Origin: Prorocentrum cordatum | Taxonomy: Eukaryota; Sar; Dinophyceae; Prorocentrales; Prorocentraceae | DNA: 64,000 nucleotides | Reading direction: 5' to 3' | NCBI GenBank assembly: GCA_963575745.1 | Contig: CAUYUJ010003003.1 | Coordinates: 140,001-204,000, forward strand | Shown here: positions 17,919 to 23,045 of the stretch, in pieces | Numbering within the stretch: the first letter of the stretch is position 1 | Layout: every line of letters begins with the position of its first letter | Notes under the pieces: generated by a model | What the model was told of the DNA's origin: nothing | The model's input: only the letters and a program-made list of their open reading frames with translations | Databases searched by the model: none | Made by a program: the position numbers and the translations under genes

Positions 17919-17950
17919 GACTGAAGGGAAACTGGGACACACAAATAAAT
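17919..17950. repeat. Dispersed repeat R2, left part of the interrupted copy
   Basis: ACTGAAGGGAAACTGGGACA and CACAAATAAAT continue, after the transposon, at 22908. The last eight bases AAATAAAT are the target duplication. Confidence 0.85.
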
Positions 17951-17977
17951 GCGCGCCCCCCCCTCTGAGATCTACCT
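17951..17977. repeat. Left terminal inverted repeat of the transposon
   Basis: Pairs with 22881-22907 at 25 of 27 positions. Confidence 0.9.
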
Positions 17978-18041
17978 TGAAGCCCTTTTCAAAGCAAAGA
18001 AGTACGAGGACACCATCGCTGTCCAAGTTTGCAGTAACAAT

Positions 18042-19187
18042 TTACCTCCGCCAAAAGTTGGCACAGAACGTGGATCCCATCTCGGCCCAAAGGTCTTTGC
18101 CCCTGTGCCAGTAAAGCCACTGGGCGCTGCGAATTGCAGTGGCGGCCGTCTCAGAATTGGGCGCCATTGTCTGGCCACCCAAGGTTGAGCGGATGTATTT
18201 CCAAGCGCTGTCGATAACCTGGGAGCCGGCCTTGGTGCGCAACTTCCTACCACATGGAAGCTTATGAGTTGCCAAGCGCGCGTAGCACGGCTTGATCCAC
18301 ACCCACTTGCCATTATTTTTCACTCTCTTTTTGCAGTGCCGCACTGAATCGTGCAACACTCCCTCAACTCGCATGGCGTAGCTCTTAGCGCGGTCCGTAT
18401 GCAAAATAATGCGCCTACCTTTCAAATAGCGGTTTGCCAGAGGCGCCCAATCGACCTTCCTGATTGCGCCTGGCCCAGGAGCCCTCTTCACCGTGGGAGC
18501 CGCGGTAGTCTTCGCCAGCACCAGCGACTCGGGCCGGCCTCGCTCCACGATGCCCGCCCATTGTTCCCATTCCACGCTCTCGGGGTCGTCCGCCTTGGCT
18601 GCCCATCCAAAGACTGCTTCATCTGCTTCAGCGTCCCTCCAGTCGCGGTCGTTGCCAACCCCGAAAACGATCGTCTTCTCTCGCTTCTTGACAAACTTCT
18701 CGCGCTGCTTCTTCACGGCAATCGAGATCCTTTCGATCGCCTTGTGGTTTGCGGAAGAGATCAATCTGCGAACCGTGGGATTGCTTCCTCCTGCTAGAAT
18801 GCTGAACAAGATGGCCACCTGCTTCTTGAAAGGCGAATGCGTGGCCCCCCACCCAGTAGAGAAGACGGGGTGATGAGCATGTGGAACAGTGAACTTCTGA
18901 CAGCCCTTGCGGTTGCACCTGCACCGAAGGCCGCGGCCTTTCACCTTGCGAAGACAGCCGAGTCTACCTCTAGGCGCAGTGGGAATCAACGGCCACGCCC
19001 GCCAACCTCGCGACCCCTCATCCCCAAGCTCCCTCCCCCCGTCTGCAGCGAGCGTGTTTGCGTTGATTCCCAGCCGCCAAACCTTTGCAGCAGTGAAGAC
19101 ACATCTTGCCCTCCTTGTTGTCCAGGGTGTTATCGCGGATGCACCGGCGGTAGAGCTTATCGTCAGGCATCTCCAAGATGGATTCAA
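18042..19187 (-). CDS. ISXO2-like (IS1595/Merlin) transposase with zinc-ribbon-like N-terminus
   Basis: DNA-cutting and joining enzyme of the element. Within the 381-residue frame, a cysteine cluster RCRCNRKGCQKF (residues 88-99) with a preceding MCLHCC in the overlapping upstream frame looks like the zinc ribbon of IS1595 transposases. A helical region (120-170) follows, then the RNase-H-like core: ADEAVFGW (Asp189), a WEQWAGIVERGRP strand pair (208-219), ILHTDRAKSY (Asp265) and QVIDSAWKYIRS (Asp326). In the family the third acid is normally Glu in an HTNxIExxW context; here it is Asp and the His is absent. The frame opens with TTG and overlaps the polymerase/protease frame by about 170 bases in another phase, so the real protein probably continues from it by frameshift or splicing. 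The stop is about 90 bp from the left terminal repeat. Confidence 0.8.
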   Translation of the reverse strand: MNPSWRCLTISSTAGASAITPWTTRRARCVFTAAKVWRLGINANTLAADGGRELGDEGSRGWRAWPLIPTAPRGRLGCLRKVKGRGLRCRCNRKGCQKFTVPHAHHPVFSTGWGATHSPFKKQVAILFSILAGGSNPTVRRLISSANHKAIERISIAVKKQREKFVKKREKTIVFGVGNDRDWRDAEADEAVFGWAAKADDPESVEWEQWAGIVERGRPESLVLAKTTAAPTVKRAPGPGAIRKVDWAPLANRYLKGRRIILHTDRAKSYAMRVEGVLHDSVRHCKKRVKNNGKWVWIKPCYARLATHKLPCGRKLRTKAGSQVIDSAWKYIRSTLGGQTMAPNSETAATAIRSAQWLYWHRGKDLWAEMGSTFCANFWRR

Positions 19188-21540
19188 GGTCGATGCTCCA
19201 CTTGTCGCGGTCGCCCCTGCTCTTCGTCGTCGGCTTGCCGTGGCGCACGTACTTTGTGTTCCTGTATGCCTTAGACTTCGCTGACGCCTTTGCCGTTCGC
19301 CCGACCAGGCTGCGGGCGGCGGCCCTTGCCCGCCCTTTCTTGGGCGTCGGGAAACTCGGAGCTGCGGCGGGCCGCCTCAAGCAACCTTGACCCGCAGGCT
19401 TCTTCACGCACGGCCGAGAGGAGCCAGCAATCAAGTCCAACAAATCTGACTCGGCGTTGCCATCGACAGGCCCGTCTTCGGTAACTTGCAGCAGGCGAGC
19501 ATGGCGTCGGCCCTCGTCCCAGTGGGTAACCAGGTCGTACAAGGCCTCATCGCCAATCTGCATCACGAAGTCCTGGTGCGAGTCGAACACCAGCATCTGC
19601 TGCGAGCCCCCGTGGGCGCGAAGACCAACAGCGTGGCCGCGAGTTCCTGGCGCCCCAATGTGCAACAGGAAGAAGTGGGCGGGGTCGGCGCAGATCACGT
19701 CGCTCAGCTGCACCTCTTGGAACGCCAGAGAAGGATAAATATGTTGCAACTGTCGGTAATAATATGGTCCACAGGCGAAGTTTGACTGGCTCGGCCCCCC
19801 CGCAACCAAATCCATATTGGCGAGCGCGCTCACAGCGCACATATTTTCTCCAGGGACAGCCTGGAGCTTCTGCTGCGACTTCTCGCAAGCTGCCGCCAGG
19901 AGAGAAGAGAAATCGTTGTGGCACGGCGGCGAAGGAGGGGCGCCACCCTGACCTCGGGCCCCTTCTCCAGGCTCGGGAGCGGAACTCCTCCAGGGTATCT
20001 CCGCGCCGCTTAGGTCTTTCAGATGCAAGGATACGCCGTGCTCGGCTTCGACTGCAGTCACAAGTCCGATGAAGCCCTCGTCGTGCACGTCAAGCCCCAT
20101 TGGCCTGAAGTAGGTGCCGTCGTAGACCAGAGAAATTGGCACGGCCCCTGCTTCCTCTAAAATATGCTTCATACTCATCATCACCCGGCACTCCAGCTCG
20201 CCCAGAAAGATGTGGAGCGAGCTGCATTCAGGCCTTGCTTTCGCAACTTCCTGATAAAGAGCGTCGTGCTCGAGAAGAAATCGACAGGCATTCGATGCTT
20301 CTGTTTGCACGCAATCCAAATGCGGAAGCCAGTCAGGCTGCTGCGCTGGATCTGGCGATTGCCGCCCGTAGGGACTGGTCGCCGAGATGGGAAGCTTCTT
20401 GGCGACGTCCACCCCGACGTCGAAGTACCCAGAGACAAAACTCTTCCACCCGCCCCAGTTGCTGGCGATGTCGCACAGCAGTGGGAACTCTGCCTCGACG
20501 CAGATCTGCCCGTGCCGCTTTAAGGCCACAACCAACAAGCTGAAGAACGCAACCTTTATGTCGAGTTCTAAAACGCCTCCTGGAATCCCAGCCAGAGCGG
20601 CGCACCGAGCTTCCCTGGTTATCTTCTGCAGAGAAGGGCCCACTGTATGAAGTCGCCCATAACCTTGCTTCACGTACTTTCGAAGGAGACTCTTCAGTGG
20701 CCGCTGCTCGCCGTCTGCAGCGGCCTCCGTGGAGGCTGTTCCCCGATTGTCAAATAAGCGAGCATAGCCCTGAACCTGGACCTGTGGCCTGTCGGCTCCA
20801 GACTCGACGCGGCCAATCAAGGCGGCGATGTCCACGACGTCTGCAACCGAGCAGACCACGGAGCTGCCGATCTGGCGAAGCTCCTGTTCGTCGTCAGACA
20901 AGAAATGGTCTGCGTCCCCAGGGCGAGCCCCCATGAGCCATCTTTCGCTGGGGGGCGCCGCCGGCGCAGGAATCTTGAAATCTCTGGAAAGCTGCAGCAT
21001 CACGTCAGCCATGACTGGGTATAGTAGCGCGTAGCGCTGCTGCTTGCCGAAAAAGTTTACGTCGGTGTCTTCCTGGACCAAGTAATCGGCCAACGGCCCG
21101 CAACTTTTCGCCAGCGACACAAATTTCGCATGCGCGGAAGCTCTTGGAACGTCGAGTCCACTGCATAACTCTTTTGCAACTTTCCAGTCCCCCACTTGTC
21201 TACCCCTGCCTTTCGATAACTTCCGCGCCTCGGCGGGCGTCTTCTTGCCTTCTTCCTGCCACAACTTTTTCAGGCAGCCAGCAAGCGTGTCCCAGTCGGT
21301 GTCGCTGCCGCCGGATCGCCCGTTGCCGGCCCCCGATGAGGAGTCCATGACGCACTTGGGCCTGGGCTCGCACTGCTGGTTGGTCAGGCGGCGGATGTAC
21401 CAACGCGTCGACACCTTCATGTGGTCATCGAGATTTTCTGGTTCGAGCGTTCCCACAATGGCTGACGAGTCCCCGAGTTCATCCCAAGTTGGTTGTAGAA
21501 TTTCTCTCAAATAAACATGGGCTGCAGCGGGGCATGCCAA
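19018..21540 (-). CDS. Polymerase-like (family A/TV-Pol-like) domain fused to a cysteine-peptidase-like domain
   Basis: An 840-residue frame. Residues 294-312 (YGRLHTVGPSLQ...TREAR), 325-336 (ELDIKVAFFSLL, Asp327), 381-392 (KKLPISATSPYG) and 470-478 (SLVYDGTYF, Asp474) are in the order of motifs A, B and C of family-A-related polymerases; the GRL-GPSLQ-R-D-YDG set most resembles TV-Pol polymerases of virophages and mobile elements. Residues 565-576 (ENMCAVSALANM, Cys568), 635-640 (GHAVGL, His636) and 650-656 (LVFDSHQ, Asp653) give a Cys-His-Asp order as in papain-fold peptidases such as C39 or C58. A basic linker (733-775) and MCLHCC (813-818) lead toward the transposase frame. The listed start is TTG; the phase is open back to a stop at 21594-21592 and overlaps the helicase-like frame. 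Domain calls are by motif reading only. Confidence 0.6.
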   Translation of the reverse strand: MACPAAAHVYLREILQPTWDELGDSSAIVGTLEPENLDDHMKVSTRWYIRRLTNQQCEPRPKCVMDSSSGAGNGRSGGSDTDWDTLAGCLKKLWQEEGKKTPAEARKLSKGRGRQVGDWKVAKELCSGLDVPRASAHAKFVSLAKSCGPLADYLVQEDTDVNFFGKQQRYALLYPVMADVMLQLSRDFKIPAPAAPPSERWLMGARPGDADHFLSDDEQELRQIGSSVVCSVADVVDIAALIGRVESGADRPQVQVQGYARLFDNRGTASTEAAADGEQRPLKSLLRKYVKQGYGRLHTVGPSLQKITREARCAALAGIPGGVLELDIKVAFFSLLVVALKRHGQICVEAEFPLLCDIASNWGGWKSFVSGYFDVGVDVAKKLPISATSPYGRQSPDPAQQPDWLPHLDCVQTEASNACRFLLEHDALYQEVAKARPECSSLHIFLGELECRVMMSMKHILEEAGAVPISLVYDGTYFRPMGLDVHDEGFIGLVTAVEAEHGVSLHLKDLSGAEIPWRSSAPEPGEGARGQGGAPPSPPCHNDFSSLLAAACEKSQQKLQAVPGENMCAVSALANMDLVAGGPSQSNFACGPYYYRQLQHIYPSLAFQEVQLSDVICADPAHFFLLHIGAPGTRGHAVGLRAHGGSQQMLVFDSHQDFVMQIGDEALYDLVTHWDEGRRHARLLQVTEDGPVDGNAESDLLDLIAGSSRPCVKKPAGQGCLRRPAAAPSFPTPKKGRARAAARSLVGRTAKASAKSKAYRNTKYVRHGKPTTKSRGDRDKWSIDLESILEMPDDKLYRRCIRDNTLDNKEGKMCLHCCKGLAAGNQRKHARCRRGEGAWG

Positions 21541-22010
21541 TATAGTATAGTCTCTAAAACATCCGATGCGATTTTGAGAAAGCGGCCATGTTCATGGTCC
21601 ACGTCCTTGACATCAGTGACCAGTGTCGCAAGGCCCACAGCCGACGTCAAAAAACGACGATCCACAGACTCCGTGGGGGACTTCCTTGGTGCTGCCTCCT
21701 CTCCGTGCCCTTCCAGGTCCAGCGCTGCAACGCTTCGGGGAACTGACATGATGGGGGCCACGTCGTCGTAGTTGCAGCTCTGCTGCTTCTTCATTCTGTT
21801 GAAGCGGACTTCGCTGGAGAATCCAAAGTTGGCTCTCACAATCAGCTCCTCGCCTGCAATGAAGCGTTTGAGCACGTCCACGTTAATCCGCATGTGAGAC
21901 GACCCTGTTTTGGACTCCTTGATGCAAACTCGCTTCTTGTGTAGGCCGAAGTGAGCGCTCTTCCGCGAGGGGCTTTCGCTGGCCGCGAGGGGGCTTGCTC
22001 CATTTTCCAA
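21507..22010 (-). CDS. Partial SF3 (D5-like) helicase segment
   Basis: A 167-residue frame. KKRVCIKES (25-33, acid at 32) followed by INVDVLKRFIAGEELIVRAN (42-61) and SCNYDDVAPIM (78-88) resembles the stretch of virus-type SF3 helicases from Walker B through the LKxLTGGDxIxxR segment to the sensor-1 CNxxPxI motif. The Walker A region expected about 100 residues upstream is missing: the sequence there is the 8-bp inverted array, so the helicase looks truncated or rearranged. The frame begins with TTG; the first ATG is at residue 40. It ends in an overlap with the polymerase frame, suggesting a single-base frame change between 21507 and 21594. Confidence 0.5.
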   Translation of the reverse strand: MENGASPLAASESPSRKSAHFGLHKKRVCIKESKTGSSHMRINVDVLKRFIAGEELIVRANFGFSSEVRFNRMKKQQSCNYDDVAPIMSVPRSVAALDLEGHGEEAAPRKSPTESVDRRFLTSAVGLATLVTDVKDVDHEHGRFLKIASDVLETILYWHAPLQPMFI

Positions 22011-22019
22011 TAAAGTCCA

Positions 22020-22098
22020 ATACAGCCCTCTTCCTCCTCCTCCTCCTTCTCCTCCTCCTCCTCCTCATCGTCATCATCGTCCTCCTCCTCCTCATCGC
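22020..22098. repeat. (TCC)n and (TCG/TCA)n tract in the transposon
   Basis: Pyrimidine-rich triplets just upstream of the helicase-like frame. Confidence 0.9.
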
Positions 22099-22099
22099 G

Positions 22100-22800
22100 C
22101 CTGGAGCGGGAGGGCGGGAGGAAAGCGGGAGAGCGGGAGAGCGGGAGAGAGCGGGAGAGGGAGAGCGGGAGAGCGGGAGACGGGAGGGCGGGAGAGCGGG
22201 AGAGCGGGAGAGCGGGAGAGCGGGAGAGCGGGAGAGCGGGAGAGCGGGAGAGCGGGAGCGGGAGAGCGGGAGAGCGGGAGAGCGGGAGAGCGGAGAGAGC
22301 GGGAGAGCGGGAGAGCGCGGAGAGCGGGAGAGCGGGAGAGCGGGAGCGGGAGAGCGGGAGAGCGGAGAGGGAGAGCGGGAGCGCGGAGAGCGGAGAGCGG
22401 GAGAGCGGGAGAGCGGGAGAGCGGGAGAGCGGGAGAGGGCGGGAGAGCGGAGAGCGGGAGAGCGGGAGAGAGCGGGAGAGCGGGAGAGCGGGAGAGCAGG
22501 AGTGCCGGGGGGGGGGGGCGGCCGGGGCGGCCGCCTCCGCCGCTCTCCCGCTCTCCCGCTCTCCCGCTCTCCCGCCCTCCCGCCCTCTCCGCCCTCCCGC
22601 CTCCCGCTCTCCCGCTCTCCCGCTCTCCCGCTCTCCCGCTCTCCCGCTCTCCCGCTCTCCCGCTCTCCCGCTCTCCCGCTCTCCCGCTCTCTCCGCTCTC
22701 CCGCTCTCCCGCTCTCCCGCTCTCCCGCTCTCCCTCTCTCCCGCTCTCCCGCTCTCCCGCTCTCCCGCTCTCCCGCTCTCCCGCTCTCCCGCCTTCCCAC
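22100..22800. repeat. Giant inverted array of the 8-bp unit AGCGGGAG
   Basis: From about 22100 to 22500 AGCGGGAG units run in one direction; after a G-rich centre (22501-22545) the complement CTCCCGCT runs back to about 22800. Arms of 250-400 bp could fold into one hairpin or cruciform. Long Ser/Pro/Arg frames here (245-405 residues) are artefacts. Confidence 0.95.
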
Positions 22801-22880
22801 TCCTCCCGAATTTCCACTTCTCCCGCCATCTCGCTCTCCCATCAGCGGCTGGAGAACACGTTATCGAAAAAAGGTGGTTG

Positions 22881-22907
22881 AGGTAGATCTCAGAGGGGGG
22901 GGCTCCC
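22881..22907. repeat. Right terminal inverted repeat of the transposon
   Basis: AGGTAGATCTCAGA, eight G, CTCCC; inverse of 17951-17977 with two mismatches. Confidence 0.9.
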
Positions 22908-23045
22908 AAATAAATACACAAATAAAAAGATTCCCCATATTTTCCCATATTTTCTGGGTTTCTGTCTTCCCCCCCACTTCCCATATTTTCCCATATTTTC
23001 CTGGGGATCGACGATTAATTGTGTCTGTGTGTTTTTTCCCGTCCT
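22908..23045. repeat. Dispersed repeat R2, right part of the interrupted copy
   Basis: Starts with the duplicated AAATAAAT, then ACACAAATAAAAAG, two CCCATATTTTCC blocks and CGATTAATTGTGTCTGTGTG, as in the intact copy at 23222. Confidence 0.85.

Follow-up and report, generated by a model that had tools for sequence, protein, structure and literature searches.

A damaged copy of a multicopy Prorocentrum cordatum transposon that probably joins a replication core and a cysteine protease-like domain to an IS1595/Merlin-like transposase

A transposon of 4,957 bp lies in the stretch of the genome of the bloom-forming alga Prorocentrum cordatum analysed here, 64,000 nucleotides of contig CAUYUJ010003003.1 (assembly GCA_963575745.1, positions 140,001 to 204,000; hereafter the window). 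Between its short inverted ends the minus strand encodes, from 5' to 3', the remnant of an SF3-type helicase, a TV-Pol-like polymerase, a cysteine protease-like domain and an IS1595/Merlin-like transposase (Table 1). The element has suffered an internal deletion and is probably one of many copies of a class II transposon that encodes a polyprotein with a replication core, the protease-like domain and a C-terminal transposase. The core appears to comprise an SF3-type helicase and a TV-Pol-like primase-polymerase, family assignments that rest on weak to moderate scores.

Table 1. Coordinates of the element, its ends, its target site and its coding features in the window
Feature	Coordinates	Strand	Remarks
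Transposon	17951-22907 (4,957 bp)	coding on minus strand	Prorocentrum cordatum window
Terminal inverted repeat, left	17951-17977	-	25/27 identical to other end; homology in other copies starts here
Terminal inverted repeat, 5' end of coding strand	22881-22907	-	20/23 genomic matches start at outermost base
8-bp target-site duplication, left copy AAATAAAT	17943-17950		Direct reading and empty-site comparison
8-bp target-site duplication, right copy AAATAAAT	22908-22915		Direct reading and empty-site comparison
IS1595/Merlin-like transposase	18042-18967	-	45% identity to L009 transposase; zinc ribbon begins pre-intron at 19081-19107
Transposase acidic motif segments	18606-18635; 18378-18410; 18189-18224	-	
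Intron, 115 nt, GT..AG, introner-like	18968-19082	-	Perfect 12-bp inverted repeat; splits zinc ribbon; predicted from sequence
Protease-like domain	19570-19854	-	Segments: Cys 19810-19854; Gly-His 19615-19647; Asp 19570-19593
TV-Pol-like polymerase	20062-20865	-	Conserved motif segments in family alignment, mapped to window
Polymerase motif segments	Hairpin Arg 20623-20664; motif A 20533-20577; fingers Lys + YG 20359-20409; motif C YDG 20107-20136	-	
SF3-type helicase remnant	21513-21989	-	76% identical to P0002 residues 212-378; lacks Walker A (P0002 183-190)
(GGGAGAGC)n-type arrays, two orientations	22099-22858		Occupy place of relatives' N-terminal coding sequence (P0007, P0002 comparison)

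An initial annotation of the window had described 27-bp inverted ends, a perfect 8-bp duplication and an empty site in sister R2 repeats, and all three are borne out. The ends are inverted copies of one another at all but two positions, and the sister repeats at about 10,880 and 23,222 carry a single AAATAAAT and lack the insert; their one discrepancy is an extra AC, 2 bp, immediately past the AAATAAAT. The same architecture recurs at other genomic loci, which are given L-numbers here (P-numbers denote relative proteins) and were fetched from the 4.13-Gb assembly. Exact duplications of 8 bp, the length expected of Merlin/IS1595 elements (8-9 bp), were found in 9 of the 10 elements with both flanks read, and five of these are not pure (AT)n; in coding orientation they are ATTTATTT in the window, ATACATAT in L013, AAATAAAT in L015, ATATGTAT in L016 and ATATATTT in L019, while those of L009, L010, L011 and L014 fall in (AT)n. 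In all ten elements read at both ends, the ends enclose the coding part, the 5' end begins GG and the 3' end finishes GC. Every one of the 14 3' flanks read out starts A/T-rich, indicating a target preference for A/T-rich sites. The ends of a sister subfamily differ from the window type (CTATGATCTACCT versus CTGAGATCTACCT) yet are clearly related.

The minus strand of the element holds three stop-to-stop frames, of 857 (19018-21591), 444 (18042-19376) and 185 amino acids (21507-22064), and the best protein match of the longest is a Prorocentrum cordatum protein identical over 55% of that open reading frame (ORF). The four activities first annotated on this strand correspond to four probable domains, and the coding part represents one polyprotein. 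Polymerase, protease and transposase form one frame split by the predicted intron; removal of the intron gives a continuous frame of 1,144 residues, in which the zinc-ribbon cysteines from either side of it align with P0002. Window-type copies L015-L019 show a step of the same size, the sister subfamily has no such gap, and the NCBI gene model P0003 likewise skips part of the intron. Separate genes in the window were rejected because one intron joins the three domains. The arms of the intron's inverted repeat are TGGGAATCAACG and CGTTGATTCCCA, each 12-mer occurring once in the window. This introner-like intron sits within a transposon and is multiplied along with it.

The element had also been called complete. 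Its ends do bound it, but its N-terminus with the Walker A motif has been lost by internal deletion, and its frame is disrupted. The match to P0002 begins at residue 212, so that the P-loop (P0002 residues 183-190) is missing, and the GGGAGAGC arrays stand in its place. A frame change near 21,540 accounts for the helicase remnant lying in a different frame from the remainder. The window copy is therefore a derivative with an internal deletion, and probably non-autonomous. A P0007-like N-terminal part is present in ten fetched loci (L009-L013, L015, L016, L019, L020 and L022) and is not recognisable in the window copy. Arrays of the same 8-bp unit and its complement occur just inside the 5' end in both subfamilies (in the window and at L025:1868-2759).

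For the helicase, the NCBIfam profile of the P4-family primase C-terminus matches 8 of 25 family members, with a best value of 1.6e-4 that falls under the curated cut-off, and PHROG DNA-primase families match a few members (best 1.9e-4). UniRef names P0011, P0014 and P0016 SF3 helicase domain proteins. A GxxGDGKG-type P-loop, the part deleted in the window, is at least 90% conserved in an alignment of 48 sequences.

As defined by Iyer et al. (2008, PMC2579912), a TV-Pol has an arginine in the hairpin, two aspartates in the palm and an RxxxK motif in the fingers. In a 42-sequence alignment of the family, the hairpin GR, both aspartates, the finger lysine with the glycine that follows, and the DG of motif C are at least 90% conserved among the rows that cover them. 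The region first annotated here as a polymerase resembles TV-Pol and not PolB. A TV-Pol has been reported in phage Ma-LMM01 (PMC2579912), and the candidate taken for comparison, a 506-amino acid ORF beside transposases, was picked by its place and size. When the 27 stop-to-stop frames of at least 200 amino acids in the first 50 kb of Ma-LMM01 were compared with the family polymerase profile by hhalign, this candidate ranked first, with motifs in register and 22% identity over 162 columns; its score was reached by 1 of 150 shuffles and not by the reversed sequence. The alignment is support, not proof, for a TV-Pol identity. An IMG/VR scan with the Ma-LMM01 protein gave 16 loci, 15 of them more than 90% identical, and so no more diverse TV-Pol set.

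The protease-like domain is marked by a cysteine and a later Gly-His, the only columns at least 90% conserved in a 38-sequence alignment; no Pfam family matched it. With the downstream Asp they may form a papain-like active site of the order Cys-His(-Asp). The adenovirus/Ulp1-type protease of Polintons and virophages has an active-site order unlike this one of Cys before His. The cysteine protease of the initial annotation is described here as protease-like.

The NCBIfam IS1595 profile matches P0002, P0004, P0005, L009 and L013 at 2.4e-6 to 5.1e-5; searches of bacterial plasmids with the transposase gave nothing. The window transposase is clearly homologous to the domain of these relatives, with 45% identity to that of L009. 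Likeness to Merlin/IS1595 lies in an IS1595-like transposase with a weak profile match, a zinc ribbon before it, 8-bp duplications and 5' GG. The element departs from Merlin at its 3' end, which reads GC rather than CC, and seemingly in having Asp as its third acidic residue. In addition, the transposase is the C-terminal part of a polyprotein that also carries helicase, polymerase and protease-like domains. Merlin-related proteins of Symbiodinium microadriaticum are reported to be 181-445 amino acids long, and the words helicase and protease do not occur in the main text of the paper that describes them (PMC8101967).

The genome contains many copies. Matches to the left 450 bp of the element numbered 40 among those scored, 20 of them (window included) at 98-100% identity; in 14 of these near-identical ends the match opens on end base 1, and in the remaining 6 on one of bases 2-8. 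The right 118 bp gave 23 matches, window included. Both ends are present on 17 of the 20 contigs with near-identical left ends, at spacings of 4.1-14.5 kb, with five of the 17 pairs at 7.1-7.3 kb, so that the window copy looks shortened. Copy counts are lower bounds, the search with P0002 having scored 32 of 1540 candidates and that with the KDZ lineage (below) 29 of 722. The genome search proposed at the outset, for copies with the same ends and duplications, accordingly found a multicopy family with near-identical ends and the 8-bp duplications described above. The family has been mobile in the recent past, because ends about 98-99% identical sit in different places. At least five sister-subfamily copies match P0002 residues 1-1467 in a single open frame with no stops. 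Two copies, L001 (contig C16384) and L004 (C18189), are 99.8% identical, and their agreement extends some 1.3 kb beyond the 3' end; the five open copies may therefore include a single insertion twice, either duplicated in the genome or doubled in the assembly.

Elements of 4.8-4.9 kb at C5084:21852-26742 and C1337:557614-562365 have the window's right end and only 39 bp of its left end; they seem to be derivatives that enclose different sequence. Long copies have an ORF of about 230 amino acids without assignment ahead of the polyprotein (L025:8968-9663), seen in five fetched loci; it is 98-100% identical in L023-L025 and 54-56% identical over 61 residues in L029 and L016, and could be either an additional exon or a second gene belonging to the element.

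Comparison between subfamilies shows purifying selection on helicase, polymerase and protease. Against L009, the window, L016 and L019 have ratios of nonsynonymous to synonymous substitution rates (dN/dS) of 0.10-0.20 in the helicase, the linker, the polymerase and the protease, the window helicase value resting on 119 codons. The transposases of the more distant L022 and L020 give 0.20 against L009, and all domains of these two together range over 0.17-0.39; synonymous divergence is saturated for the window-type transposase, so no ratio is claimed for it. Identity between the window and L009 in 60-residue windows is 63-90% up to about residue 1,040, 49% at 1,040-1,099 and 25-56% from 1,100 on. 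L022 keeps 57-87% identity to L009 throughout, and against the window it drops from 62-86% to 22-46%. L020 shares 60% of its transposase residues with L009 and 38% with the window, the corresponding polymerase values being 61% and 64%; this comparison of domains has no helicase value for the window, whose protein was taken from beyond the frame change. Most simply, a different transposase of the IS1595 type was brought into the window subfamily close to the junction of protease and transposase, the alternative being faster divergence of the transposase domain in one lineage. Six genomic loci, among 59 candidates scored, exceed the cut-off of the Pfam IS1595 family PF12762 (contigs C1403, C16963, C17974, C15263 and C13764), and none is on a contig listed for left-end, right-end, P0002-type or KDZ-lineage matches. 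These loci may be Merlin-type elements in their own right, from which transposase modules could have been taken.

A related core is also joined to a transposase of another kind. Three protein searches, in each of which the best 8000 candidates by shared words were scored, returned at least 6, 13 and 46 proteins, including proteins of Cladocopium goreaui, Symbiodinium and Polarella glacialis. By profiles built here, 6 of 55 collected proteins have an IS1595-type end, 28 a KDZ (Kyakuja-Dileera-Zisupton)-type end and 21 neither (18 of these being shorter than 900 residues). The KDZ-type profile, taken from the last 520 residues of six proteins, possibly includes protease-side residues, which leaves the weakest of these labels, on P0021, P0042 and P0035, less sure. 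The Pfam KDZ family matched 9 of 25 members at E <=0.1, with P0028 (29.5 bits) and P0029 (32.0 bits) above its cut-off of 26.6 bits. Fusions of the core to KDZ transposases occur in Symbiodinium, Cladocopium and Polarella, and P. cordatum contigs carry matches to the KDZ part of P0015 together with core matches. The IS1595-type end is found in the same domain order in P0007, as is the KDZ end in many proteins. Core identity between the two lineages is about 20-25%. In a tree of 35 core sequences a single change, with full support, sets the 3 rows of IS1595 type apart from the 26 of KDZ type; branches are very long, and the grouping of P0040 with the IS1595-type rows is a warning of long-branch effects. 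No convincing ends were seen at the KDZ-type loci L033 and L034. Since the related core is paired with KDZ transposases as well, it is the replication core, and not a Merlin transposase, that defines this kind of element. The initial view of a self-replicating type of element mobilised by a Merlin-type transposase agrees with the domain set of a bounded transposon, but does not cover the cores paired with KDZ.

The element sits beside the self-synthesizing transposons, and to our knowledge none of those described matches it in polymerase, transposase or organisation. It resembles the TV-Pol elements of Iyer et al. (2008) in having a TV-Pol-like polymerase and a D5/SF3 helicase in mobile DNA, a linkage proposed to prime and replicate the element; those known are from bacteria, the Nephroselmis plastid and Sputnik, and the bacterial neighbourhoods include RNase H-fold transposases, integrases and resolvases (PMC2579912). 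It differs from them in being nuclear, in encoding one polyprotein with helicase before polymerase, in its cysteine protease-like domain and IS1595 or KDZ transposases, and in the short terminal inverted repeats of the IS1595 lineage. Like Polintons/Mavericks, it would be a eukaryotic self-synthesizing DNA transposon. Polintons have PolB, a retroviral-type integrase, 6-bp duplications, an adenovirus-type protease and capsid genes. A Pfam scan of 25 members found no PolB or integrase family, the duplication is 8 bp and not 6, and the ORF lists of L025 and L029, read by eye with no profile search, showed no capsid-like gene. Membership of the Polintons was rejected on the PolB result and the duplication length. 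The KDZ elements share their transposase with the sister lineage and not with the window element. In searches of the open-access literature (subscription papers and Repbase not covered) no description of this domain combination was found, in keeping with the claim first made for it, nor any paper joining KDZ to such a core. The paper on the P. cordatum genome (PMC10666404) speaks of introners and of transposable elements; the words Merlin and transposase are absent from its main text.

A number of results weigh against these assignments. Profile checks of the domains, as first proposed, gave IS1595 and P4 primase matches, but below the cut-offs: the primase C-terminus scores 17-21 bits against a cut-off of 108.7, and IS1595 23-28 bits against 75. 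The IS1595 profile does not match the window segment, P0003 or P0007, and it finds 1 of the 25 members of set A5, where two carry that end. No Pfam polymerase or protease family was found in 25 members at E 0.1, Pfam and PHROG scans of the window ORFs gave nothing, and PDB sequence searches yielded nothing credible. The arginine of the finger RxxxK is not conserved in the 42-sequence alignment, where only the lysine is kept, and the hhalign score of the Ma-LMM01 candidate is low (probability 2.3%, E 0.021). L018 lies in a pure (AT)n site to which an 8-bp duplication does not fit.

A rival account is a cut-and-paste transposon of Merlin/IS1595 type in which the additional domains help transposition (unwinding, gap repair or regulation) and not self-replication. 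This account is unlikely. In its favour, GG 5' ends, 8-bp duplications and A/T-rich targets fit a DDE transposon, support for TV-Pol is weak and self-replication is an inference. The D5/SF3 helicase beside TV-Pol has, however, been described as a replication set (PMC2579912), the helicase and polymerase regions are under purifying selection, and the core is retained across changes of transposase. Less likely again, the element is a relic or descendant of a virophage or Polinton-like virus that lost its capsid genes and acquired a transposase. Sputnik does have TV-Pol and a D5 helicase (PMC2579912), and some copies reach about 15 kb with long upstream parts and the unassigned ORF, but the helicase precedes the polymerase, the reverse of the Sputnik order, IMG/VR scans with the family confirmed no relative, five of the 17 paired copies measure 7.1-7.3 kb, and no capsid-like gene was noticed by eye in the lists for L025 and L029. 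An accidental composite seems very improbable, one in which a Merlin element landed in an unrelated replication gene or fused to it and the whole was then passively amplified. The window copy is indeed broken, and some Cladocopium gene models run into unrelated domains (P0013 has a glycosyltransferase), so that fusions in gene models alone prove little. Against it stand the copies open from helicase to transposase, the domain order common to P0007 and many KDZ-type proteins, purifying selection and the ends that enclose the coding part in ten elements. Nested insertion was rejected on the open frames across domains and the presence of both transposase lineages.

On balance it is likely that the element belongs to a separate dinoflagellate superfamily of self-synthesizing transposons, in which an SF3 helicase-TV-Pol-protease core is combined with unrelated transposases, IS1595/Merlin or KDZ, swapped at the protease boundary. 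That the element replicates itself is an inference, for which its SF3-type and TV-Pol-like domains give good grounds. In such an element the protease would release the modules from the polyprotein, and the transposase would bind the 27-bp ends, excise or copy the element and insert it with an 8-bp stagger; helicase and polymerase would replicate the element once excised, so that its numbers rise before it reinserts. Proteins of intact copies could at most move the window copy.

Among self-synthesizing transposons of eukaryotic nuclei, the Polintons are the main ones known. If the present reading is true, a second nuclear kind exists, built on a TV-Pol core and trading transposases, and it shows how replication and mobility modules combine. 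Bacterial TV-Pol elements and virophage replication genes would then be linked to nuclear transposons, and the family may help to explain the repeat load of the very large dinoflagellate genomes.

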